A stretch of 64,000 nt of DNA, from NCBI RefSeq assembly GCF_000685865.1, contig NZ_JMKS01000003.1:1617001-1681000 (forward strand). The letters run 5' to 3'. Each line of letters opens with the position of its first letter. Position 1 is the first letter of the stretch. A program made the position numbers and the translations under genes. Below the pieces are notes generated by a model, which worked only from the letters and a program-made list of their open reading frames with translations, was not told where the DNA came from and did no database searches. Shown here piece after piece: positions 5,298 to 44,563 of the stretch. This stretch comes from Exiguobacterium antarcticum DSM 14480 (lineage in GTDB: Bacteria > Bacillota > Bacilli > Exiguobacteriales > Exiguobacteriaceae).

Positions 5298-5747
5298 TTA
5301 TGAAGAAACAGCCTCTTCGTCCATCGTCAAGAGGATCTTATCAAACACATGGACCATCACATTTAGTTCTTCTTCCGTCAATGTACCGAAGCGTTCCTGC
5401 AGATACTTACGGCGGACGATTTCAAGTTCCCGAAAAGCGGCTTCGCCTTCGTCTGTCAATGCAAGGACAATCGATCTCCGGTCGTCAGTCGAACGCGTCC
5501 GCGTGACGAATCCTGCTTTGTAGAGACGATCAGTCAAAGCTGTTACCTGGCTTGTTGCAAGCTCAAACTGTTCTGCGAGTAAGGTCGGACGTTGAGGACC
5601 ATTTTCAGATAAACTGCGTAAGATGAAAAATTCACTTCGGGTCGCAGTCCCTTCGAAGAGGCGGTTTAGTTCCCGACGTAGTGTCCGGAGAATCACACGC
5701 ATTTGTTCCTCTAATCGATAGGTCAGTTGATCACGTTCTTGTGGCAT
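5298..5747 (-). CDS. MarR-family transcriptional regulator
   Basis: 149 residues with a MarR winged helix: TRSEFFILRSLSENGPQRPTLLAEQF (helices 2-3), recognition helix region LATSQVTALTDRLYKAGFVTR and the wing motif RSTDDRRSIVLALTDEG. These are dimeric repressors released by phenolics, oxidants or drugs; the ligand here is not predictable. AAAGGA precedes the ATG by ten bases. A perfect 6-2-6 palindrome TTTAGT-GT-ACTAAA lies 37 bp upstream (5784-5797) and is the likely autoregulatory operator. There is no co-transcribed transporter gene on the same strand; the next gene upstream is the lysine permease on the opposite strand. Confidence 0.9.
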   Translation of the reverse strand: MPQERDQLTYRLEEQMRVILRTLRRELNRLFEGTATRSEFFILRSLSENGPQRPTLLAEQFELATSQVTALTDRLYKAGFVTRTRSTDDRRSIVLALTDEGEAAFRELEIVRRKYLQERFGTLTEEELNVMVHVFDKILLTMDEEAVSS

Positions 5748-5783
5748 TCATGCAACATCCTTTCTTTCGGTTAACTTCTATAG

Positions 5784-5797
5784 TTTAGTGTACTAAA
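5784..5797. promoter_or_regulatory. Palindromic operator upstream of marR
   Basis: TTTAGTGTACTAAA, two 6-bp arms around GT, in the marR 5' region. A second inverted repeat AACTAA-5-TTAGTT lies at 5896-5912. Both resemble MarR-family operator half-sites; binding is inferred. Confidence 0.55.
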
Positions 5798-5842
5798 AAT
5801 ATCGGGATTTTACCATGAACAGCACTAAATTCAAAAAAGGAA

Positions 5843-5872
5843 TTGACAATTTAAAGACGATTTGTGTAACAT
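5843..5872 (+). promoter_or_regulatory. Candidate promoter of the lysine riboswitch-lysP transcript
   Basis: TTGACA (5843-5848), 18 bp spacer, TAACAT (5867-5872). It sits about 55 bp before the L-box core, as expected. Confidence 0.55.
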
Positions 5873-5920
5873 GACGAAGTAATAATGAAATTTATAACTA
5901 ACTTAATTAGTTCTCACTCA

Positions 5921-6112
5921 ACCAGTGGGATGGAGGTTGCAATTCTTAAGAGTACAATCACGGATGTCGTCAAGCGGCAGATGAGGTGACTGAAAAGGAA
6001 GAATTGCCGAAATCAATCATCGCTTTGAAGATGATCGATTGGGATTAGATCAAACAGGTCTAATACTGTCACAAGTCAGATGTGATTTGTGGGGAGCTAT
6101 CTTTCACGACGG
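5921..6112 (+). ncRNA. Lysine riboswitch (L-box) aptamer
   Basis: The sequence carries the L-box core in order: GGATGGAGGTTGC, TTAAGAGTA, GACTGAAAAGGAAGAATTGC CGAAATC, the P4 hairpin ending TCTAATACTGTCA and the closing TTTGTGGGGAGCTATCTT. These align one by one with the B. subtilis lysC leader. A mutually exclusive antiterminator (GAGGCGCA with TGCGTTCTC) and a terminator follow before lysP. Lysine binding should therefore terminate transcription and lower lysine uptake. Confidence 0.92.
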
Positions 6113-6141
6113 TAGAATGAGGCGCATCCGTTTATTATGTT

Positions 6142-6180
6142 GCGTTCTCATCTTCCTTCTGGAAGGTGAGGGCGCTTTTT
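6142..6180 (+). terminator. Riboswitch expression-platform terminator
   Basis: Stem of GCG, CTCA and CTTCC pairing with GGAAG, TGAG and CGC, then TTTTT. Its 5' arm also pairs with GAGGCGCA at 6119-6126 as an antiterminator. Confidence 0.85.
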
Positions 6181-6237
6181 GTATATTCGATTCAAAAAGT
6201 GTCCTCTCAAAAATTAAAAAAGAGAGAAGCGAATGAC

Positions 6238-7722
6238 ATGAACAATTTAAATCTACAACCTCAAAGAAAACTCGATTCAACCGAAGAAGGGTTAAAACGT
6301 GGACTTCAGGCCCGTCATATGTCGATGATTGCGATTGGTGGGGCCATCGGAACCGGGTTATTCATTGCCTCAGGTGCCTCAGTTGCTGCTGCCGGACCTG
6401 GTGGTGCCTTGTTATCTTATACAGTCGTCGGACTGATGGTTTACTTCCTGATGACGAGTCTGGGTGAGATGGCAGCGTACATGCCAGTCGCCGGCTCATT
6501 TTCGACGTACGGTGCGAAATTCGTCGATCCATCGTTTGGTTTTGCGTTAGGTTGGAACTACTGGTACAACTGGGCAGTCACGATTGCCGTCGAACTTGTT
6601 GCGGCACAAATCGTCATGACCTATTGGTTCCCGGACGTACCGGGTTTTTACTTCAGTGCCATCTTCTTATTGTTGATGATTGGTTTAAATTTCTTCTCCG
6701 TTAAAGGTTTCGGAGAAGCAGAATATTGGTTTGCGATGATCAAAGTCGTTACCGTCATCATTTTCTTGATTGTCGGTGTCGCAATGATTTTCGGTGTCTT
6801 CACATCGGAAGCACCGGTCGGATTCAAAAACTTTGCATTAGGCGACGCACCGTTCGTCGGCGGTATTCCGGCCGTCATCGGTATCATCCTAGTCGCCGGT
6901 TTCAGTTTCCAAGGAACCGAACTTGTCGGAATTGCGGCAGGGGAGTCGGAAGATCCGGAAAAAAACGTGCCGAAAGCTGTGAAACAAGTCTTTTGGCGGA
7001 TTCTTCTCTTTTATGTGTTCGCGATTTTCGTCATCGGGATGTTGATCCCGTACACAAGTCCGAACTTGGTGTCAAACGATATCACCGATGTAGCGGTCAG
7101 TCCGTTTACACTCGTCTTTGAAAAAGCCGGGCTTGCCTTCTCGGCAGCGTTAATGAACGCCGTCATCTTGACGTCTGTCTTATCAGCCGGGAACTCGGGG
7201 ATGTACGCGTCGACACGGATGTTGTATACGCTCGCTCGTCAAGGTGATGCACCGAAGATGTTTGCTAAAGTTTCAAAAAACGGTGTCCCACGTAATGCTT
7301 TGCTCGCAACCGGTGCCATCGGGGCACTCTGTTTCCTGACGTCGATGTTTGGTGGTCAAGTGTATCTCTGGTTGCTCAATGCTTCCGGGATGACCGGATT
7401 CATCGCATGGCTCGGTATCGCAATCAGTCATTACCGTTTCCGGAAAGGGTTCGTCGCGCAAGGTCATTCGTTAAGTGACTTGCCTTACGTCGCGCCGGCA
7501 TTCCCATTTGGACCATTGTTCGCCTTTGGACTGTGTTTCCTCGTCATCGTCGGTCAAAACTATGCCGCCTTCCTCGCGGATCAAATTGACTGGGTCGGAA
7601 TTGCCGCGACATATATCGGTATTCCGCTGTTCCTTGCTTTTTGGTTAGGTCATAAATTTAAAAACCGGACATCGGTCGTTCCCTATGCAGAAATGGAATT
7701 CCCGAAGCATCCACGTCCGTAA
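6238..7722 (+). CDS. lysP: Lysine-specific permease LysP
   Basis: 494 residues from the ATG at 6238 (GAGAGAAG upstream); a longer in-frame start at 6166 would overlap the terminator hairpin. APC-superfamily 12-TM symporter, very like E. coli LysP: RGLQARHMSMIAIGGAIGTG at TM1, GPGGALLSY, MTSLGEMAAYMPVAGSF, and GFALGWNYWYNWAVTIAVEL at TM3. The later FSFQGTELVGIAAGESEDPE and the SAGNSGMYASTRMLYTLA helices complete the family pattern. The lysine riboswitch in its leader independently supports lysine as substrate. It imports L-lysine with protons. Monocistronic with its own terminator at 7727. Confidence 0.95.
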   Translation: MNNLNLQPQRKLDSTEEGLKRGLQARHMSMIAIGGAIGTGLFIASGASVAAAGPGGALLSYTVVGLMVYFLMTSLGEMAAYMPVAGSFSTYGAKFVDPSFGFALGWNYWYNWAVTIAVELVAAQIVMTYWFPDVPGFYFSAIFLLLMIGLNFFSVKGFGEAEYWFAMIKVVTVIIFLIVGVAMIFGVFTSEAPVGFKNFALGDAPFVGGIPAVIGIILVAGFSFQGTELVGIAAGESEDPEKNVPKAVKQVFWRILLFYVFAIFVIGMLIPYTSPNLVSNDITDVAVSPFTLVFEKAGLAFSAALMNAVILTSVLSAGNSGMYASTRMLYTLARQGDAPKMFAKVSKNGVPRNALLATGAIGALCFLTSMFGGQVYLWLLNASGMTGFIAWLGIAISHYRFRKGFVAQGHSLSDLPYVAPAFPFGPLFAFGLCFLVIVGQNYAAFLADQIDWVGIAATYIGIPLFLAFWLGHKFKNRTSVVPYAEMEFPKHPRP

Positions 7723-27913: not shown

Positions 27914-29290
27914 ATGAAACAACAGACAGAACTGAATCGGGGATTAGAAGAACGTCACATTACATTGATGTCGCTGGGGGCGGCAATCGGTGTCGGACTG
28001 TTCTTAGGATCGGCAAAAGCGATTCAATTAGCTGGACCAGGAATACTGATCGGATACTTAATCGGTGGTCTTATTATCTTTATCATCATGCGTGCACTTG
28101 GGGAGCTCGCAGTCCGTGAACCGGTATCAGGCAGTTTTGCCGAATATGCCCGGAAATATGTCAGTCCGCTAGCCGGGTTCCTGACAGGATGGAATTATTG
28201 GTTACTCTGGATTTTCACATGTATGGCCGAAATTACGGCCGTCGGGATCTACATGCAAGAATGGTTCCCGAACTCACCAACGTGGATGTGGGCACTCGGT
28301 GCGCTCATTCTGATGACGAGCATCAACTTCATTGCCGTTAAGTTTTATGGGGAATTTGAATTTTGGTTTGCGTTGATTAAAATTGTCGCCATCGTCGCGA
28401 TGATCATCCTCGGAACACTGACGATCGTCATTGGTTTCGGGAACGGTGGTACACCGGTCGGGATTTCAAATCTTTGGTCGCACGGCGGTTTCTTACCAAA
28501 CGGATTTGGTGGGGTCTTACTTGCGATGCAAATGGTCATGTTTGCCTTCTTAGGGATTGAAGTGATTGGGGTCACAGCAGGGGAAGCAAAAAATCCGAAG
28601 AAAACGATTCGCAAGGCCGTCAACAACGTTTTTTGGCGAATCCTGGTTTTCTATATCGGCGCATTGTTCGTCATTCTGTCGATTTATCCGTGGGATCAAG
28701 TCGGACAGAATAACAGCAGTCCGTTTGTATTATTGTTTGAATCATTAGGTATTCCGGCAGCGGCTGGAATCATCAACTTCGTCGTCTTGACGGCAGCCTT
28801 GTCGTCATGTAACTCAGGGATCTTCTCGACGGCACGAATGATGATGAACTTGTCGCAAAATCAGGAAGCACCGAAACGATTTGCGAAGATTTCAAAAAAT
28901 GGTGTACCGGCACTGGCAACGATTCTTTCCGGAGTTGCCTTGTTGGTTGGCGTCGCCTTGAACTACTTCTTACCGGATGATGTCTTTGCGATTGTCACGA
29001 GTATTGCGACGTTCGGTGCGGTCTGGACATGGGCGATGATCTTGATTGCCCAGATGCGGGCACGGAAAGTCCATGGAACAGCTGAATTCGCGGTTCCGTT
29101 TTTCCCGATTGCGAACTATGTCGCGTTAGTCGCTCTCGCAGGTGTCATCGTCTTGATGGCGTTTGATGCGGGGACGCGGATTGCACTTGTCGTTGGACCA
29201 CTTTGGTACGTGATTTTGATTGCCGTCTATTATGCACGGGGTATGCATAAAGAAAAACGCCAATCGTTTGACCAAGCATCAGGGGAATAA
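27914..29290 (+). CDS. Amino acid permease, AAT family (ProY/AnsP/HutM-like)
   Basis: 458 residues, 12 helices, APC superfamily, amino-acid transporter (AAT) branch. RGLEERHITLMSLGAAIGVG leads TM1, followed by IIMRALGELAVREPVSGSFAEYA, GFLTGWNYWLLWIFTCMAEITA, VMFAFLGIEVIGVTAGEAKNP and SSCNSGIFSTARMMMNLS. Proline, histidine or asparagine permeases (ProY, HutM, AnsP) are the nearest recalled relatives; the substrate is not fixed by sequence. A perfect cre site over its promoter indicates carbon catabolite repression, which fits an amino acid used as a carbon or nitrogen source. AAGGA lies upstream of ATG; terminator at 29290. Confidence 0.92.
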   Translation: MKQQTELNRGLEERHITLMSLGAAIGVGLFLGSAKAIQLAGPGILIGYLIGGLIIFIIMRALGELAVREPVSGSFAEYARKYVSPLAGFLTGWNYWLLWIFTCMAEITAVGIYMQEWFPNSPTWMWALGALILMTSINFIAVKFYGEFEFWFALIKIVAIVAMIILGTLTIVIGFGNGGTPVGISNLWSHGGFLPNGFGGVLLAMQMVMFAFLGIEVIGVTAGEAKNPKKTIRKAVNNVFWRILVFYIGALFVILSIYPWDQVGQNNSSPFVLLFESLGIPAAAGIINFVVLTAALSSCNSGIFSTARMMMNLSQNQEAPKRFAKISKNGVPALATILSGVALLVGVALNYFLPDDVFAIVTSIATFGAVWTWAMILIAQMRARKVHGTAEFAVPFFPIANYVALVALAGVIVLMAFDAGTRIALVVGPLWYVILIAVYYARGMHKEKRQSFDQASGE

Positions 29291-29319
29291 AAAGAGATCA
29301 GCTTCGGCTGGTCTCTTTT
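29290..29319 (+). terminator. Permease terminator
   Basis: AAAGAGA-CAGC-ttcg-GCTG-TCTCTTT with a UUCG tetraloop. Confidence 0.88.
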
Positions 29320-29380
29320 GTTCTGTTTTGCTACCGGTTTTGCTACACTGAACACAGATGAAATTAGAGGAGGAACCATC

Positions 29381-29680
29381 ATGAAGACGATCCATGTCGA
29401 TGAATTACAAGAAAAGCTTGAAGCAGGCGAAGCGTTACACGTCGTCGATGTCCGGGAACAAGACGAGTATGACGCTGGTCATATTCCAAACGTCCGTTTT
29501 CTCCCGATGTCTGAAATCGGTGAACGTTATACGGAACTGCAAGAAGGAGAGAAATATTACCTGATTTGTAAAGCCGGTGGACGAAGTGAGAACGTCGGAC
29601 GGTTCTTGGAACAGTACGGATATGACGTCGTCAACGTTGAAGGCGGCATGATGAATTGGAAGGGCGATCAAGAAGCCTGA
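29381..29680 (+). CDS. Single-domain rhodanese-like protein
   Basis: 99 residues from the ATG at 29381 (GAGGAGG 8 bases upstream; the longer frame to 29318 overlaps the preceding terminator). A stand-alone rhodanese homology domain: LHVVDVREQDEYDAGHIPNV near residue 20, then YYLICKAGGRSENVGRFLEQ with the persulfide cysteine in the CKAGGR loop, and YDVVNVEGGMMNW at the end. It probably carries sulfane sulfur in the cytosol. Own terminator, no partner gene. Confidence 0.92.
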   Translation: MKTIHVDELQEKLEAGEALHVVDVREQDEYDAGHIPNVRFLPMSEIGERYTELQEGEKYYLICKAGGRSENVGRFLEQYGYDVVNVEGGMMNWKGDQEA

Positions 29681-35942: not shown

Positions 35943-36698
35943 ATGGATATTGGATTAATTACGCAGTATGCGACGGTTGGACTTGTCTTAATCATCTTAC
36001 AAGGATTACTGTCGGCAGATAACGCCATGGTCATGGCGGTTCTCGTTCGTCCGCTACCGGATGAGCAACGAAAAAAAGCTTTATTTTATGGATTGATCGG
36101 GGCTCTCGTCTTACGTTTCATCGCGATTTTCTTTGCCTCGTATTTAGCAACGATTTGGGAATTGCAGGCACTTGGTGCGGTGTACCTCTTCTACGTCGCG
36201 TTCAAAGGAATCGTCGAGGCACGTTCCAACAAACATCAAGTTCCGGACGCGCTGTCGTCTGGAAAAGCCTCACCGAATTTTTGGTGGACCGTCGTCAAAG
36301 TCGAGTTTTCCGACTTGGCATTTGCTGTTGACTCGACGCTTGCGGCAGTTGCGATGGCAACGACGTTACCGATGATCGGTGGTACGATCGGTGGTCTGAA
36401 CACGGGACAATTCTGGGTCGTCTTCTTTAGCGGCATCATCGGCCTTGTCATCATGCGTTACTTTGCGAGTTGGTTTGTCGTCTTGCTACAGAAACGACCG
36501 GGAATCGAAGAAGCTGCCTTTTGGCTCGTTGCTTGGGTCGGTGTCAAGCTCGTCGTCATGACACTCGCGCACCCATCCATTCACGTCTTGCCACACGAAT
36601 TTCCGGAAAGCACATTATGGCAATCCATCTTCTGGGTTGTGCTCGTCTTGATTTTGGTGTTAGGTTGGTTTAGAAGCGGTACAAAAACAGAAAAATAA
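35943..36698 (+). CDS. TerC-family integral membrane protein (second paralogue)
   Basis: 251 residues, seven helices. The same TerC metal-site motifs occur: LIILQGLLSADNAMVMAVLVRPLP (here Gln replaces the first Glu of the upstream paralogue) and VEFSDLAFAVDSTLAAVAMATTLP. The central loop is shorter. It is clearly a tandem duplicate of 34933-35790 (both have DEQRKKALFYGL-like and TIGGLNTGQF/GGLNTGHF segments). The Glu-to-Gln change in the first motif could alter metal choice. AAAGGAG precedes ATG; separate promoter and terminator indicate independent regulation. Confidence 0.92.
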   Translation: MDIGLITQYATVGLVLIILQGLLSADNAMVMAVLVRPLPDEQRKKALFYGLIGALVLRFIAIFFASYLATIWELQALGAVYLFYVAFKGIVEARSNKHQVPDALSSGKASPNFWWTVVKVEFSDLAFAVDSTLAAVAMATTLPMIGGTIGGLNTGQFWVVFFSGIIGLVIMRYFASWFVVLLQKRPGIEEAAFWLVAWVGVKLVVMTLAHPSIHVLPHEFPESTLWQSIFWVVLVLILVLGWFRSGTKTEK

Positions 36699-39524: not shown

Positions 39525-40035
39525 TACTCTTTATCTCTATGCGCTTGCCGCCGCTGGCTGTGGCGTTTTACTGTCTGTCGTTTTTTCCGATTTGATTCCG
39601 AGCATCGATCAAATCTTTCATCCGACGTTAATCTTGTCCTTTGTCATTTTGACATCCGCTTTTGGATTTGGACTGGAACATCTGACGTCACTTGGTTCGC
39701 TCGTTATTTTGCTGATCAGTGCCGGTATCAGTCTTATTTTGACGTCTTTACTGCATTTATTCATTTTTGTACCGCTCGCCAAAGCAGAGCAATCGATCAG
39801 TTTTTCGGAACAGACCCTCGAAGGACGCAGTGCCATCGTCATCATCCCAATTCCGGAGGCAGGCTACGGTGAAATTCTCATCGACGATGTTTCGGGGCGG
39901 ATTTCCAAATCAGCCGTTCTTTTTGAAGGTCCTGCTTTAGAACAGGGAACGAAAGTCATCATCATTGAAATCAAACAAGGCGTGGCCCATGTCATGACCT
40001 ATCCTACTCAATGGAAAGAGGAGATGTTTTTATGA
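39514..40035 (+). CDS. NfeD-like membrane protein (YuaF type)
   Basis: 173 residues: two to three N-terminal helices (LYALAAAGCGVLLSVVFSDL, PTLILSFVILTSAFGFGL, SLVILLISAGISLILTSLLHLFIF) and a C-terminal OB-fold-like cytosolic domain (LEGRSAIVIIPIPEAGYGEI...). This matches YuaF, the NfeD-family partner that co-occurs with flotillin. It overlaps both neighbours (11 bases upstream, 4 downstream), indicating tight translational coupling. It likely helps assemble or process FloT membrane platforms. Confidence 0.85.
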   Translation: MDVSTLYLYALAAAGCGVLLSVVFSDLIPSIDQIFHPTLILSFVILTSAFGFGLEHLTSLGSLVILLISAGISLILTSLLHLFIFVPLAKAEQSISFSEQTLEGRSAIVIIPIPEAGYGEILIDDVSGRISKSAVLFEGPALEQGTKVIIIEIKQGVAHVMTYPTQWKEEMFL

Positions 40036-41555
40036 ATCCGATCATTATCGTGGCCATCATTGCCGGCGCTCTGATCTTAGCGCTGATTGCCTTATTCGTG
40101 ACCAAATACCGGACAGTCGGACCGGAGGAAGCATTGATCGTGTCCGGAAGTTATCTCGGGAATAGTCCGACCGTCAACACCGATGAGTCGGGGAACCGGG
40201 TCAAAATCATTCGTGGTGGCGGGGCATTCATCTTACCCGTCTTTCAACAGGCTTCCCCGATCAGTTTACTGTCAAGTAAGTTAGAAGTGACGACACCGGA
40301 AGTCTACACGGAACAAGGGGTTCCGGTCATGGCGGACGGAACAGCGATCATTAAAATCGGCAGCTCGATTTCGGAAATCGCGACAGCTGCCGAACAATTT
40401 CTCGGTAAATCAAAGGAAGACCGGGAAGGCGAGGCCCGTGAAGTCCTCGAAGGTCACTTACGGTCGATTCTCGGTTCGATGACGGTCGAAGAGATTTACA
40501 AGAATCGGGATAAATTCTCACAAGAAGTGCAACGTGTTGCGTCTCAGGATTTAGCGAAGATGGGACTGATCATCGTATCGTTTACGATCAAAGATGTCCG
40601 CGATAAGAACGGTTACTTGGAGTCACTCGGAAAACCGCGAATCGCTCAAGTCCGCCGCGATGCCGACATCGCGACGGCCGATGCGGAAAAAGAGACGCGG
40701 ATCAAACGGGCGGAAGCATCAAAAGACGCAAAGAAAGCCGAACTCGAACGGGCGACGGAAATTGCGGAAGCGGAAAAAGAAAATCAGCTGAAGATGGCCG
40801 ATTACCGCCGCGAGCAAGACATCGCGAAGGCGAAAGCCGATCAAGCATATGATCTTGAAAATGCACGGGTTCAGCAGGAAGTCACGGAACAACAGATGCA
40901 GATCAAAATCATCGAACGCGAAAAACAAATCGAACTCGAAGAACGTGAGATTCTGCGTCGCGAGAAACAATACGATGCGGAAGTCAAAAAACGGGCGGAC
41001 GCCGATCGCTACTCGATTGAACAGGCGGCTCAAGCCGACCGGGCAAAACAGTATGCGGAAGCGGACGCGACGAAATACCGGATCGAGGCATCTGCGAAAG
41101 CCGACGCCGAACGGATTCGTCTCGATGGTCTCGCCAAAGCGGAAGCCGAGCGGGCACAAGGGGAGACAGAAGCGGATATCATCCGCCTGAAGGGTCTCGC
41201 GGAAGCCGAAGCAAAAGAAAAAATCGCCCAAGCCTTCGAACAGTTTGGACAAGCAGCGATTCTCGACATGGTCATCCGGATGATGCCGGAATATGCGAAA
41301 CAAGTCGCAGCACCACTTGGCAATATCGACAAGATCACGGTCGTCGATACGGGAAGCGGCGAAGGCGGTGGAGCGAACCGGGTGACCGGCTACGCAACCG
41401 ACTTGATGGCTTCTCTGCAGGAGACGCTTAAAGCATCATCCGGAATCGATGTCAAAGACTTGATTGAGAATTTCTCGGGCAAAGGAACGGCGAAACCGTT
41501 GACGGTCAACTTGAATCAAGGGGAACCGGTCGCGTCGGGAACGAAGTCTGAATGA
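40032..41555 (+). CDS. floT: Flotillin FloT
   Basis: 507 residues from the ATG at 40032 (GAGGAG 8 bases upstream, overlapping the yuaF-like stop). An N-terminal membrane anchor (IIIVAIIAGALILALIALFV) precedes a PHB/SPFH domain (about 30-190: KYRTVGPEEALIVSG, GGAFILPVFQQASPISLLS) and a long coiled-coil region (190-400) with the flotillin EA-rich repeats (AEASKDAKKAELERATEIAE, ADAERIRLDGLAKAEAERAQ). The C-terminal QAAILDMVIRMMPEYAKQVA is conserved. It scaffolds functional membrane microdomains. Operon under a sigma-W-type promoter. Confidence 0.96.
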   Translation: MNPIIIVAIIAGALILALIALFVTKYRTVGPEEALIVSGSYLGNSPTVNTDESGNRVKIIRGGGAFILPVFQQASPISLLSSKLEVTTPEVYTEQGVPVMADGTAIIKIGSSISEIATAAEQFLGKSKEDREGEAREVLEGHLRSILGSMTVEEIYKNRDKFSQEVQRVASQDLAKMGLIIVSFTIKDVRDKNGYLESLGKPRIAQVRRDADIATADAEKETRIKRAEASKDAKKAELERATEIAEAEKENQLKMADYRREQDIAKAKADQAYDLENARVQQEVTEQQMQIKIIEREKQIELEEREILRREKQYDAEVKKRADADRYSIEQAAQADRAKQYAEADATKYRIEASAKADAERIRLDGLAKAEAERAQGETEADIIRLKGLAEAEAKEKIAQAFEQFGQAAILDMVIRMMPEYAKQVAAPLGNIDKITVVDTGSGEGGGANRVTGYATDLMASLQETLKASSGIDVKDLIENFSGKGTAKPLTVNLNQGEPVASGTKSE

Positions 41556-41743
41556 AACCGAACGTTGTCTTGATGATACTGCTCCTGCTTGTCGCAGTGC
41601 ATCTCGTCGTCCCGATTTCGCCACTCATTCTCGTGGCGATTGGCGCGGGCTTTGGGCTGTATAAAGGCTATACATCACAGGGCGGGTTCAACTCAATCTT
41701 TAAAGTACGACAAAAGCAGACGCTTGATGGACGGATGCACTGA
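41552..41743 (+). CDS. Small hydrophobic protein, last gene of the flotillin operon
   Basis: 63 residues starting at ATG 41552, overlapping the floT stop by 4 bases. The first 35 residues form one or two helices (NVVLMILLLLVAVHLVVP and SPLILVAIGAGFGLYKGY), followed by a short polar basic tail. No family recognised. Its coupling to floT suggests a small membrane-platform component; the equivalent position in B. subtilis holds an unrelated acetyltransferase gene. A strong terminator follows. Confidence 0.7.
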   Translation: MKPNVVLMILLLLVAVHLVVPISPLILVAIGAGFGLYKGYTSQGGFNSIFKVRQKQTLDGRMH

Positions 41744-41796
41744 CGTTTGAATGGTATCACCGAAACGGTTCTCTTAGAAAATGGACGCAACCACGT

Positions 41797-41853
41797 AAAA
41801 ACCCGAAGGATTGGCATCTTCTGTCTAAGAATGACGCCAATCCTTCGGGTTTT
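41797..41853 (+). terminator. Flotillin operon terminator
   Basis: 18-bp arms AAAACCCGAAGGATTGGC / GCCAATCCTTCGGGTTTT with a 21-nt loop. Confidence 0.88.
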
Positions 41854-41892
41854 GATAGGATTTCATTCAAGTGATTGCACACATATTGACAT

Positions 41893-41917
41893 GTTTATGA
41901 CACCTGTCTAGGGGTAA
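41893..41917 (+). promoter_or_regulatory. Candidate sigma-B promoter of the heliorhodopsin gene
   Basis: GTTTAT (41893-41898), 13 bp, GGGTAA (41912-41917): full agreement with GTTTWW-N13-15-GGGWAW, 57 bp before ATG. Confidence 0.7.
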
Positions 41918-41973
41918 ATCAAAAGTACATCAAATGCGTTAAGGGTAAGAAGAGGATCTTAAGGAGGAACACT

Positions 41974-42753
41974 ATGGCTGAAACTACACGTTCGATTGCG
42001 TCGGGAGTGACACCTCAACGTTTGAAAAACCTTCGTCTTTGGAATATTGGGCTTGCAATCCTCCATCTGGGACAAGCTGCGTCGATCCTTTTTCTAACGA
42101 CAGACTTCGCAATACCTGTCATCAGTTCTTACATCGACGGACCGCCCGGAGCGGGAGCACTGGTATCTGAGTCGCTTTTTGATGTACGAATTGGTTGGGT
42201 AGTAGCTCTCTTTCTAACTCTAGCCGGACTTGATCATTTAATAACAGCGACTTTTGGGCGAAACATGTATGAACGTGACCTCATGCATGGAATGAATCGA
42301 TTCCGTTGGGTCGAATATTCGTTTAGTGCCACTGTGATGGTTGTTATCATTGCTTTGTATTGGGGGATTGTCACAATTAATGCGTTGATCATCATCGCCG
42401 GTGCGAATGTAGCTATGATTCTTTTTGGATATTTGCAAGAACGAATGAATCCTCCTGGAAGAAAGACCACAACCATGCTGCCGTTCTGGTTTGGTTCGCT
42501 TGTCGGGATCACACCATGGATTGCGATGGGCATCAACATCCCGCTTTACTCGGATGCGCCACAGTATATCTTTGTCATCCTTGGTGTTCAAGGCGTCTTG
42601 TTCTTTTGTTTTGGTCTGAACCAGTGGCTTCAATATCGTGAGATCGGTCGATGGACCGATTATGCGTTCGGTGAGAAAACATATCTTGTGCTGAGCTTAG
42701 CCGCAAAGTCTTTATTGGCTTGGCAGATTTTTGCCGCGTCGCTTATTTCATGA
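41974..42753 (+). CDS. Heliorhodopsin
   Basis: 259 residues, seven helices. It carries the heliorhodopsin (not type-1 pump) signatures: TM1 AILHLGQAASILFL with His31, TM2-3 LAGLDHLITATFG with His88, TM3 RFRWVEYSFSATVMVVIIAL with counterion Glu114, and TM7 TYLVLSLAAKSLLAWQIFA with retinal Schiff-base Lys245 and Ser241. These align with 48C12 (H23, H80, E107, S237, K241). The intra-membrane His cluster and absence of a DTD/NDQ pump triad in TM3 argue for a light sensor or regulator rather than a proton pump. Topology should be N-in. AAGGAGG lies upstream of ATG. No retinal synthase gene is in the window. Monocistronic, with a sigma-B-type promoter. Confidence 0.96.
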   Translation: MAETTRSIASGVTPQRLKNLRLWNIGLAILHLGQAASILFLTTDFAIPVISSYIDGPPGAGALVSESLFDVRIGWVVALFLTLAGLDHLITATFGRNMYERDLMHGMNRFRWVEYSFSATVMVVIIALYWGIVTINALIIIAGANVAMILFGYLQERMNPPGRKTTTMLPFWFGSLVGITPWIAMGINIPLYSDAPQYIFVILGVQGVLFFCFGLNQWLQYREIGRWTDYAFGEKTYLVLSLAAKSLLAWQIFAASLIS

Positions 42754-42834
42754 TTTGTATCAAGACAAATGAAACGCCTTTAACAAAATAAGAGCTGAAT
42801 TAAAAACGCCTGGGACCAAATGTCCTTTGACGAT

Positions 42835-42883
42835 AAAAAACGAACGTTCCCTTCGTCATGTGACAAGGGAACGTTCGTTTTTT
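42835..42883. terminator. Bidirectional terminator between heliorhodopsin and degV
   Basis: 19-bp arms AAAAAACGAACGTTCCCTT / AAGGGAACGTTCGTTTTTT between convergent genes. Confidence 0.92.
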
Positions 42884-43724
42884 ATAAGTCATACCCGATG
42901 ACGAGTAATCCCGGTCCGGTATGTGAACCGATGGCTGCTCCGGCAATCGTGATCAGGACTTCACTTGGGGAAAAGTGTTCTTCGATTAAATGTTTCAACT
43001 GTTCTGCCCGTTCGATCGAGTCGCCGTGACCGATGATGATCCGGTGTCCGTCGATTGACGGGCGTGCTTCTTCCATCCACTCGACGATACGATTCATGAC
43101 TTTTTTCTGACCACGGATTTTTTCTTTTGGAATCAGCTTACCGTCCTCGACTGTCAACAGCGGAAGGATTGATAACAAACCACCGATGAAGGCACTCGCT
43201 CGCGAGACACGTCCGCCACGCATCAAGTATTCAAGCGATTCGACGGTAAAGAGATGACGGACGGTATTGATCTTTTGTTCGGCATACGTTTTTGTTTCTT
43301 CGAACGTGTGGGTCTCTGCAAATACAGCGACGTCTAACACGAACAGACCTTGACCGGTCGAAGCCGTTTTCGTATCGATGATTGCATACGGAACATCCGG
43401 ATACGTTTCGGCAAGCTCTTCCGCAAGCATCGTCGCCGTTTGATACGTACCGGACAACTCACTTGAAAAAGCAAGGTAGATAAACGGTTCCCCGTGTTTG
43501 AAGTGCGCCGTAAACACCTCGACCATCCGCGATACTTCGACCTGAAACGTCTTCGGGGCCGCACCTTCCCGCATTTTAGCGTAGAGTTCGAGCGGCGAAA
43601 TCGATTCGCCGTCAAAATACGTATCTTCTCCGATCAACACGCCAAACGGCATGACAGTGAAGCCAGCGGCGTCGAGTAATTCCTTTGGTGCGTCCGCACC
43701 GCTATCTGTAATAAAACGTACCAT
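42882..43724 (-). CDS. DegV-family fatty-acid-binding protein
   Basis: 280 residues from the ATG at 43724 (AAAGGAG about 10 bases upstream; a TTG 21 bases earlier overlaps the site). DegV/FakB fold: MVRFITDSGADAPKELLDA at the start, VMPFGVLIGEDTYFDG, TFQVEVSRMVEVFTAHF (usual TSQPS motif is TFQVE here), YLAFSSELSGTYQTATM, IIDTKTASTGQGLFV, LEYLMRGGRVSR and IGSHTGPGLLVIGY at the end. FakB proteins present a fatty acid to FakA kinase; fakA is not nearby, so whether this is a FakB is open. It is transcribed with lipL (17 bp gap). Confidence 0.92.
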   Translation of the reverse strand: MVRFITDSGADAPKELLDAAGFTVMPFGVLIGEDTYFDGESISPLELYAKMREGAAPKTFQVEVSRMVEVFTAHFKHGEPFIYLAFSSELSGTYQTATMLAEELAETYPDVPYAIIDTKTASTGQGLFVLDVAVFAETHTFEETKTYAEQKINTVRHLFTVESLEYLMRGGRVSRASAFIGGLLSILPLLTVEDGKLIPKEKIRGQKKVMNRIVEWMEEARPSIDGHRIIIGHGDSIERAEQLKHLIEEHFSPSEVLITIAGAAIGSHTGPGLLVIGYDL

Positions 43725-43741
43725 GTTCGTTCTCTCCTTTA

Positions 43742-44563
43742 TCAACCTAGGACTTTTTCATTTCGATCTAACATCCGACCCAGGTTTACACCGAAGCGTT
43801 CATTCTCGACTTCGCTTAAGACGGACGGTGTTAATGTCGCATCAAGTGCCATTAAGGACCGATAGACACGTAACAAGCAGGCTTCGACTGTTAACGGGCG
43901 CTGCAGTAATTCTTCAAGGGACGCCATCGTCTCCGGCACAACGGTCGGATACACGAATTTTGTTGCTTCTCCTTGTAAGGCGGCGGCATAAAAATCACGG
44001 ACGAGTCGTGCGCGTTCGCTGCCACTTCCATTGACACAGAGATAAATTTGCACGGCGACACCTCCGCGGACACGTCGTTGTGAAATCCCGGCAAATTTTT
44101 TCCCGGCAATCGATAAGTCATACGATCCGGGACAATAGGAACCCACCACTTCTCCGGCAACGATTGCATCCGTCTCTTCTATAAACATATGGCGGACAAG
44201 TGCAAGCATCGCTTCGTAGCCACTGTCGATGTCAATTCCACCACGTTCCGGAAGAACAAGTGAGATGTTCAGGACACCGGCATCAAGCACGACGGCAAGA
44301 CCACCGGAGTTACGGATGACCGGTTGGAAGCCATGGGCGTATAAGACGTCGATTCCGTCATTGAGGTGAGGGAGACGCGCGTCTTGAATCCCGAGGACAA
44401 CCGTTTCATGGTGAACCCAAGAGCGGATCGCCGCACCTTCTGTTGCGACGGAGGCGCATAATGTATCGTCCATCGCAAACGATTGTGTCGCATGAAAGGC
44501 GCTTCCGAGTGACGTTTGATCAAAAATACGATAATGTTCTTGTTTTAAGAGTTCGATTCCCAT
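43742..44563 (-). CDS. lipL: Octanoyl-[GcvH]:protein N-octanoyltransferase LipL
   Basis: 273 residues of the biotin/lipoate protein ligase fold. LipL moves octanoyl from GcvH to lipoyl-dependent E2 subunits in the Bacillus lipoylation route. Evidence: [39 protein letters not shown] and [28 protein letters not shown], which has the catalytic cysteine (about residue 150) used by LipL/LipM, and no ATP-binding ligase C-domain. In B. subtilis ywfL (lipL) lies near ywfO; here a ywfO homologue is divergent next door, which supports LipL over LipM. AAGGA precedes ATG. Confidence 0.9.

Follow-up and report, generated by a model that had tools for sequence, protein, structure and literature searches.

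A heliorhodopsin gene with a putative SigB-type promoter in one Exiguobacterium lineage

Introduction

Heliorhodopsins (HeRs) are light-absorbing membrane proteins of unsettled role, and many come from uncultured organisms. An intact copy in a genus with laboratory cultures (PMC8706201), accompanied by a type-1 rhodopsin and a promoter hypothesis, allows a direct test of when such a protein is produced and of how a cell fares without it. On the structural side, the system to which we compare is 48C12 (PDB ID: 6su3, 6su4, and 6uh3), for which a polar relay is described that comprises N16, H23, Q26, S76, H80, Y92, R104, S111, E149, E230, S237, and W246, with Ser76 serving as a hydrogen-bond donor to the counterion (PMC9726877). 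On the functional side, TfHeR from Trichococcus flocculiformis is reported to be regulatory, its gene being described as lying in one operon with that of a class II photolyase and as encoding the sole opsin of its genome, and the residues given for its photolyase contacts are E97, R162, and K227 (PMC9769723). Regulatory action has been reported for other HeRs as well (PMC9769723, PMC11109279, and PMC9529153), and genes for TerC are named among the frequent neighbors in HeR operons (PMC11109279).

Here, we describe a heliorhodopsin gene (heR) of Exiguobacterium antarcticum DSM 14480, which is located in a 64,000-nucleotide stretch of DNA (the window) that spans positions 1,617,001–1,681,000 of contig C3 in a genome of 3.22 Mb and 7 contigs. 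The heliorhodopsin family is already known and heR adds one member to it; the interesting and testable part would be its control by SigB. The reading that we favor, with modest confidence, is that of a stand-alone heR gained by one Exiguobacterium lineage and now forming its own transcription unit, with a SigB-type promoter as its probable start.

Organization of the heR locus

The initial annotation had called a complete heliorhodopsin gene, and in fact there is an uninterrupted ATG frame of 259 codons with a good ribosome-binding site. The features of the locus, by window position, are these:

40011..41555, + strand: flotillin gene (Band_7 + Flot), upstream of heR
41552..41743, + strand: 63-residue ORF, apparent remnant of the final flotillin-operon gene (136 residues in genomes G011 and G013)
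41798..41853, no strand: terminator-like inverted repeat downstream of the flotillin operon and ahead of the heR promoter (21-nt arms, 95%, 14 nt apart, TTTT end)
41893..41898, + strand: putative SigB-type −35 box GTTTAT, part of the motif at the heR promoter
41912..41917, + strand: putative SigB-type −10 box GGGTAA (spacer 13; end 56 nt 5′ of the heR ATG)
41961..41967, + strand: Shine-Dalgarno sequence AAGGAGG, 6 nt 5′ of the heR ATG
41974..42753, + strand: heR, heliorhodopsin coding sequence (ATG start, 259 residues, zero internal stops)
42833..42885, no strand: terminator-like inverted repeat in the interval between heR and the convergent degV (21-nt arms, 100%, 11 nt apart, T run)
42882..43745, − strand: DegV-family gene, right flank, convergent to heR

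Upstream, the neighbors of heR are a gene with a sub-threshold match to NfeD, the flotillin gene, and the 63-residue ORF, and downstream lies the convergent degV. Because an inverted repeat with 21-nt arms is found on either side, heR is most likely monocistronic, as judged from the sequence. Both of these repeats are absent from the output of the terminator scan, the loop limit of which is 8. Separately, a gene for a TerC-family membrane protein occurs at 35943–36698 of the window, 5.3 kb upstream of heR, with several genes and a terminator-like repeat in between.

With heR directly downstream of the flotillin operon, and with flotillin genes reported as a conserved context of type-1 flotillin-associated rhodopsins (FArhodopsins; PMC10308929), the protein could be viewed as a functional partner of a flotillin microdomain and a counterpart of those rhodopsins. 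We hold this to be very unlikely, as heR has a putative promoter of its own as well as the terminator-like repeats, and as no homolog of this flotillin is found in any of the six other heR loci searched (5.8–12.8 kb).

Sequence and structural comparison with 48C12

In a profile search, the heR protein exceeded the cut-offs of two heliorhodopsin models, these being PF18761 (Heliorhodopsin; 293.3 bits with a cut-off of 26.7) and the NCBIfam HeR model NF038020 (248.5 bits with a cut-off of 100). The single other Pfam match fell far under its cut-off, and PF01036 (Bac_rhodopsin) was absent among the Pfam matches up to E = 1. Moreover, at E ≤ 0.001, all six phmmer matches in the PDB were heliorhodopsins, and all ten Foldseek matches to the predicted model were HeR chains. 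Profile, sequence, and fold are therefore in agreement with the initial annotation, which had placed the protein among the heliorhodopsins and not the type-1 pumps; this assignment is supported by both sequence and model, and the gene call itself lies far beyond chance.

The predicted structure, built with six aligned relatives and modest in quality (mean pLDDT 65.9), shows seven long helices, one short helix, and a strand pair (47–55/62–71) that comes after the first helix. The distribution of charges (K + R, 7 inside versus 1 outside; D + E, 4 versus 5), for which the sides were assigned by hand and the loops were taken from this same pLDDT 65.9 model, would fit the inverted topology of heliorhodopsins, with the N terminus in the cytoplasm.

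We checked 17 positions of 48C12, among them N101 and N138, which were our own choice. The heR protein and 48C12 share the same fold, a Glu counterion, the SxxxK of TM7, and both histidines, with 109 of 242 aligned residues being identical and with identity at 16 of the 17 checked positions, most of which are named in PMC9726877. Here, the residues singled out in the initial annotation are all present: Glu114 (the counterion of TM3, in RWVEY) aligns with E107, Lys245 (the retinal lysine of TM7, in SLAAKSLLAWQ) with K241, and His31 and His88 with H23 and H80, while Ser241 corresponds to S237. The polar relay is likewise kept at 11 of its 12 positions, and the one exception in both sets is Ser76, which is replaced by Ala84, a residue common to all six aligned sequences. 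A further difference is seen beside His88, where Asp87 is invariant among the six aligned sequences and 48C12 has Phe79. As the published calculation of the Ser76 effect in 48C12 gives −9 nm (PMC9726877), a small red shift from the Ser76-to-Ala84 replacement can be guessed.

Retinal supply and a second rhodopsin

The absence of a retinal synthase from the window, as observed in the initial annotation, can be extended to the genome for the two families searched. No match was found there to RPE65 (PF03055, E up to 0.001), which is over its cut-off in two of 14 control genomes, or to Blh/BCD (PF15461, E up to 1), which is seen in two of the controls only below cut-off, so that this second search has no clear positive control. 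The heR opsin is predicted to bind retinal.

The single PF01036 match in the genome belongs to a separate gene, on contig C6 at 28875–29561 (L009 1456–2220, minus strand), that encodes an ESR-like type-1 rhodopsin. Over 252 residues, seven differences were counted by eye between this protein and PDB 4hyj, the E. sibiricum rhodopsin ESR. A single genome from the Bacilli thus encodes two rhodopsin types, with no known retinal synthase detected in it, and since both lack such an enzyme, an outside retinal supply or some other enzyme would serve the two of them.

Seven helices and a retinal lysine would also suit an ion pump or channel, and some viral HeRs are said to transport protons. For heR, we find such an activity highly improbable in view of its HeR family and fold, and with the ESR-like type-1 rhodopsin being available in the genome for that task; TfHeR, moreover, is reported to show no pumping (PMC9769723).

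Distribution and origin

Among 19 genomes of the genus, one per species, heR was found in one, a count that is compatible with loss in the others or with variation within species. At the matching site between flotillin and degV, heR is absent in all eight relatives read there, out of the 18 other genus genomes, and the spacing of the flotillin and degV matches is 530–749 nt in these eight versus 1326 nt here. Relatives without heR at the matching site would serve as natural controls. On either side of the site, the flanking DNA of G011 and G013 is 85–87% identical to that found here. Where heR sits, these two genomes have the latter half of the final flotillin-operon gene, which has 136 residues there versus 63 here. 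As for this third gene of the operon, open frames of 136–150 residues are present in eight relatives, and the 136-residue version has no Pfam match.

The nearest relatives of heR that we found come from another order and another phylum, and include the HeR of Trichococcus patagoniensis DSM 18806 (Lactobacillales; L003), at 86% identity, and that of Arthrobacter sp. AL12 (L004), at 76% identity, the latter adjoining a gene for a TetR-type regulator. Three actinobacterial MAGs give proteins with 62–63% identity. When 10.2 kb of the window was compared with the T. patagoniensis locus, the alignment was limited to the coding region; the DNA upstream is unalignable, its 300 nt before the gene lack a SigB-like motif, and transposase-like ORFs, recognized by eye only, occur near the HeR gene. 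Between the two genes, 223 of 259 residues are equal, and the four-fold sites agree at 41 of 116, with 24% expected from composition. The protein thus appears to have been held nearly constant while its silent sites were almost randomized, which argues for a function under selection and for an old split, and against heR being a recent copy of the sampled Trichococcus gene.

The GC3 of heR is 44.4%, versus 57.0% for flotillin and 54.6% for degV. No direct repeats of at least 14 nt were found in 41540–42900, and so a transposon-type footprint was not seen there. We infer that heR was gained via horizontal transfer. As for its carrier, a phage or virus was considered and rejected, as 50,697 phage records gave no match and the seven pattern stretches in viral contigs include no relative. 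A plasmid was rejected as well: among 72,556 records from plasmids, two match, each with less than 40% identity, so that neither is the source of heR. Within the class, five of 398 genomes match heR at E ≤ 0.001, and of these only the genome described here is over the cut-off; three of the four sub-threshold matches contain internal stop codons. The 398 genomes are drawn from a larger group, in which other heR-bearing Bacilli may exist, Trichococcus being one. In a set of 151 relatives, the two that match are the genome itself and G055, one of the sub-threshold class genomes.

A heliorhodopsin gene is also present at 5592–6368 of a 10.5-kb Lactococcus petauri plasmid (L056, NZ_CP141705.1), its product being 37% identical to the heR protein. 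This plasmid is typed as mobilizable and carries an IS6 transposase, a recombinase, and a relaxase, and it is possible that it acts as a transfer vehicle for heliorhodopsins among the Bacilli.

The putative SigB-type promoter

The motif GTTTAT-N13-GGGTAA is found 5′ of heR just where the initial annotation had placed it, with the two boxes at the positions given above. A pattern that was shaped after the site was seen, GTTTAW-N13-GGGTAW, matches the window once and gave no match in any of 100 shuffles. When the 230 nt that precede heR were shuffled 5000 times, with base composition alone preserved, 272 of the shuffles reached at most two mismatches to the SigB consensus GTTTAA/GGGTAT. Unlike the gene call, the promoter call is thus not far beyond chance. 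In the whole genome, the strict pattern has three matches versus three for a reversed control pattern, and the relaxed pattern has five matches in the window versus the 2.8 expected from a first-order simulation. As the controls give similar counts, we dropped the motif by itself as proof of SigB control. All three strict matches in the genome, that of heR included, lie upstream of a correctly oriented ORF, though for L028 the start codon was our own choice within a longer ORF. The other two (L027 3148–3122, minus strand; L028 3271–3296) are each located 5′ of a small ORF.

The sigB gene is present in all 19 genomes of the genus; in the genome described here, its product scores 408.3 bits with the SigB model TIGR02941 (cut-off 315), and rsbV- and rsbW-type genes adjoin it. 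Upstream of rsbV, a single GTTT-N16/17-GGGAAW site occurs in each of the 19, which are related genomes and not 19 independent cases, and here the two ends of the site line up and do not vary, unlike the bases that separate them. The rsbV boxes have GGGAAW, a spacer of 14 or 15 (for a six-base −35), and a position farther upstream, whereas heR has GGGTA and a spacer of 13.

The counts given above, along with a perfect TTGACA at 41886–41891, just 5′ of the SigB-type site, are also in keeping with heR being driven by some other promoter, whether a SigA promoter whose −10 is poor or transcription that reads through from the flotillin genes, in which case the SigB-like boxes would be there by chance. 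However, the promoter scan found no −10 partner for this TTGACA and no sigma-70 promoter upstream of heR, and a terminator-like repeat separates the flotillin operon from the gene. There is also the similar box before rsbV throughout the genus sample, even though its spacer and the fourth base of its −10 differ. We consider such a promoter a doubtful alternative, but one to be taken seriously. The sigma-B-type promoter proposed in the initial annotation thus stands in part: the rsbV boxes of the genus and the scan without a sigma-70 promoter speak for it, and the control-like motif counts and the differences in detail between the boxes speak against it. Judging by these comparisons, a SigB-type promoter for heR is plausible but not proven, and we rate SigB control of the gene as somewhat probable.

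None of the six other heR genes read has a SigB-like motif in its upstream 300 nt, so the one found here would be either an innovation of this lineage or the gift of a donor outside the sample. As far as the open-access literature was searched, a link between SigB and heliorhodopsin is new: none of the papers listed on SigB and the general stress response mentions heliorhodopsin, the words "heliorhodopsin" and "Exiguobacterium" gave no title match (either word in one abstract only), and "sigma", "Exiguobacter", and "Trichococcus" are absent from the main text of PMC8612252.

A possible role for heR

By sequence and analogy, the best-supported account of heR would be that of a stress-expressed, light-switched regulator. 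Following its acquisition through horizontal transfer, the gene would be turned on by SigB when the cell is under stress, and the opsin made would bind retinal taken up externally, a source that we propose given that the searches detected none of the known enzymes of retinal synthesis. In the light, the proton of the Schiff base would pass to Glu114 and to the histidine pair His88/His31, and a slow change of shape at the cytoplasmic face may then alter the activity of a partner protein, presumably encoded outside the heR transcript, with no ions being moved. A SigB promoter fits this regulatory proposal and does not test it, and the light or oxidative stress circuit suggested in the initial annotation is a setting to which heR might, by inference only, belong.

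A more specific role would be that of assisting DNA photorepair, as reported for TfHeR and the class II CPD photolyase, the activity of which TfHeR raised about threefold (PMC9769723). The closest relative of heR found is a Trichococcus HeR, and there are two photolyase-family genes (PF00875) in the genome, yet neither protein reaches the class II cut-off, one being a DASH protein over its cut-off and the other best matching the class I model, below its cut-off. In addition, both genes lie about 1.3 Mb from heR on the same contig, neither of the 4.5-kb stretches around them contains the relaxed SigB-like motif, and no photolyase was recognized by reading among the listed ORFs of the 12.8-kb T. 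patagoniensis locus. We therefore judge photorepair to be unlikely for heR. As the photolyase-family proteins found are DASH and class-I-like, the class II photolyase model of TfHeR does not transfer simply. The heR protein and TfHeR are both HeRs from members of the Bacilli, but the neighbors of heR are the flotillin operon and degV, an ESR-like rhodopsin is encoded elsewhere in the genome, and a class II photolyase was not found.

For the stress-expressed regulator that we prefer, the partner switch of SigB itself might be considered as a target. Light input to SigB is reported to run through YtvA in B. subtilis and Lmo0799 in Listeria, and red light is also reported to activate SigB in both without an identified receptor (PMC3019169). 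That the heliorhodopsin is a SigB-made element for visible-light input or feedback, acting on RsbV/RsbW, strikes us as quite improbable; if true, this red-light activation would have an example of the non-flavin type of receptor that it lacks. At the rsbV locus, none of rsbR, rsbS, rsbT, and rsbU is found between rsbV and the gene next to it, as rsbV directly follows a PemK/MazF-type toxin gene (L025 3207–4078; G000:C3 about 1,159,200–1,160,080).
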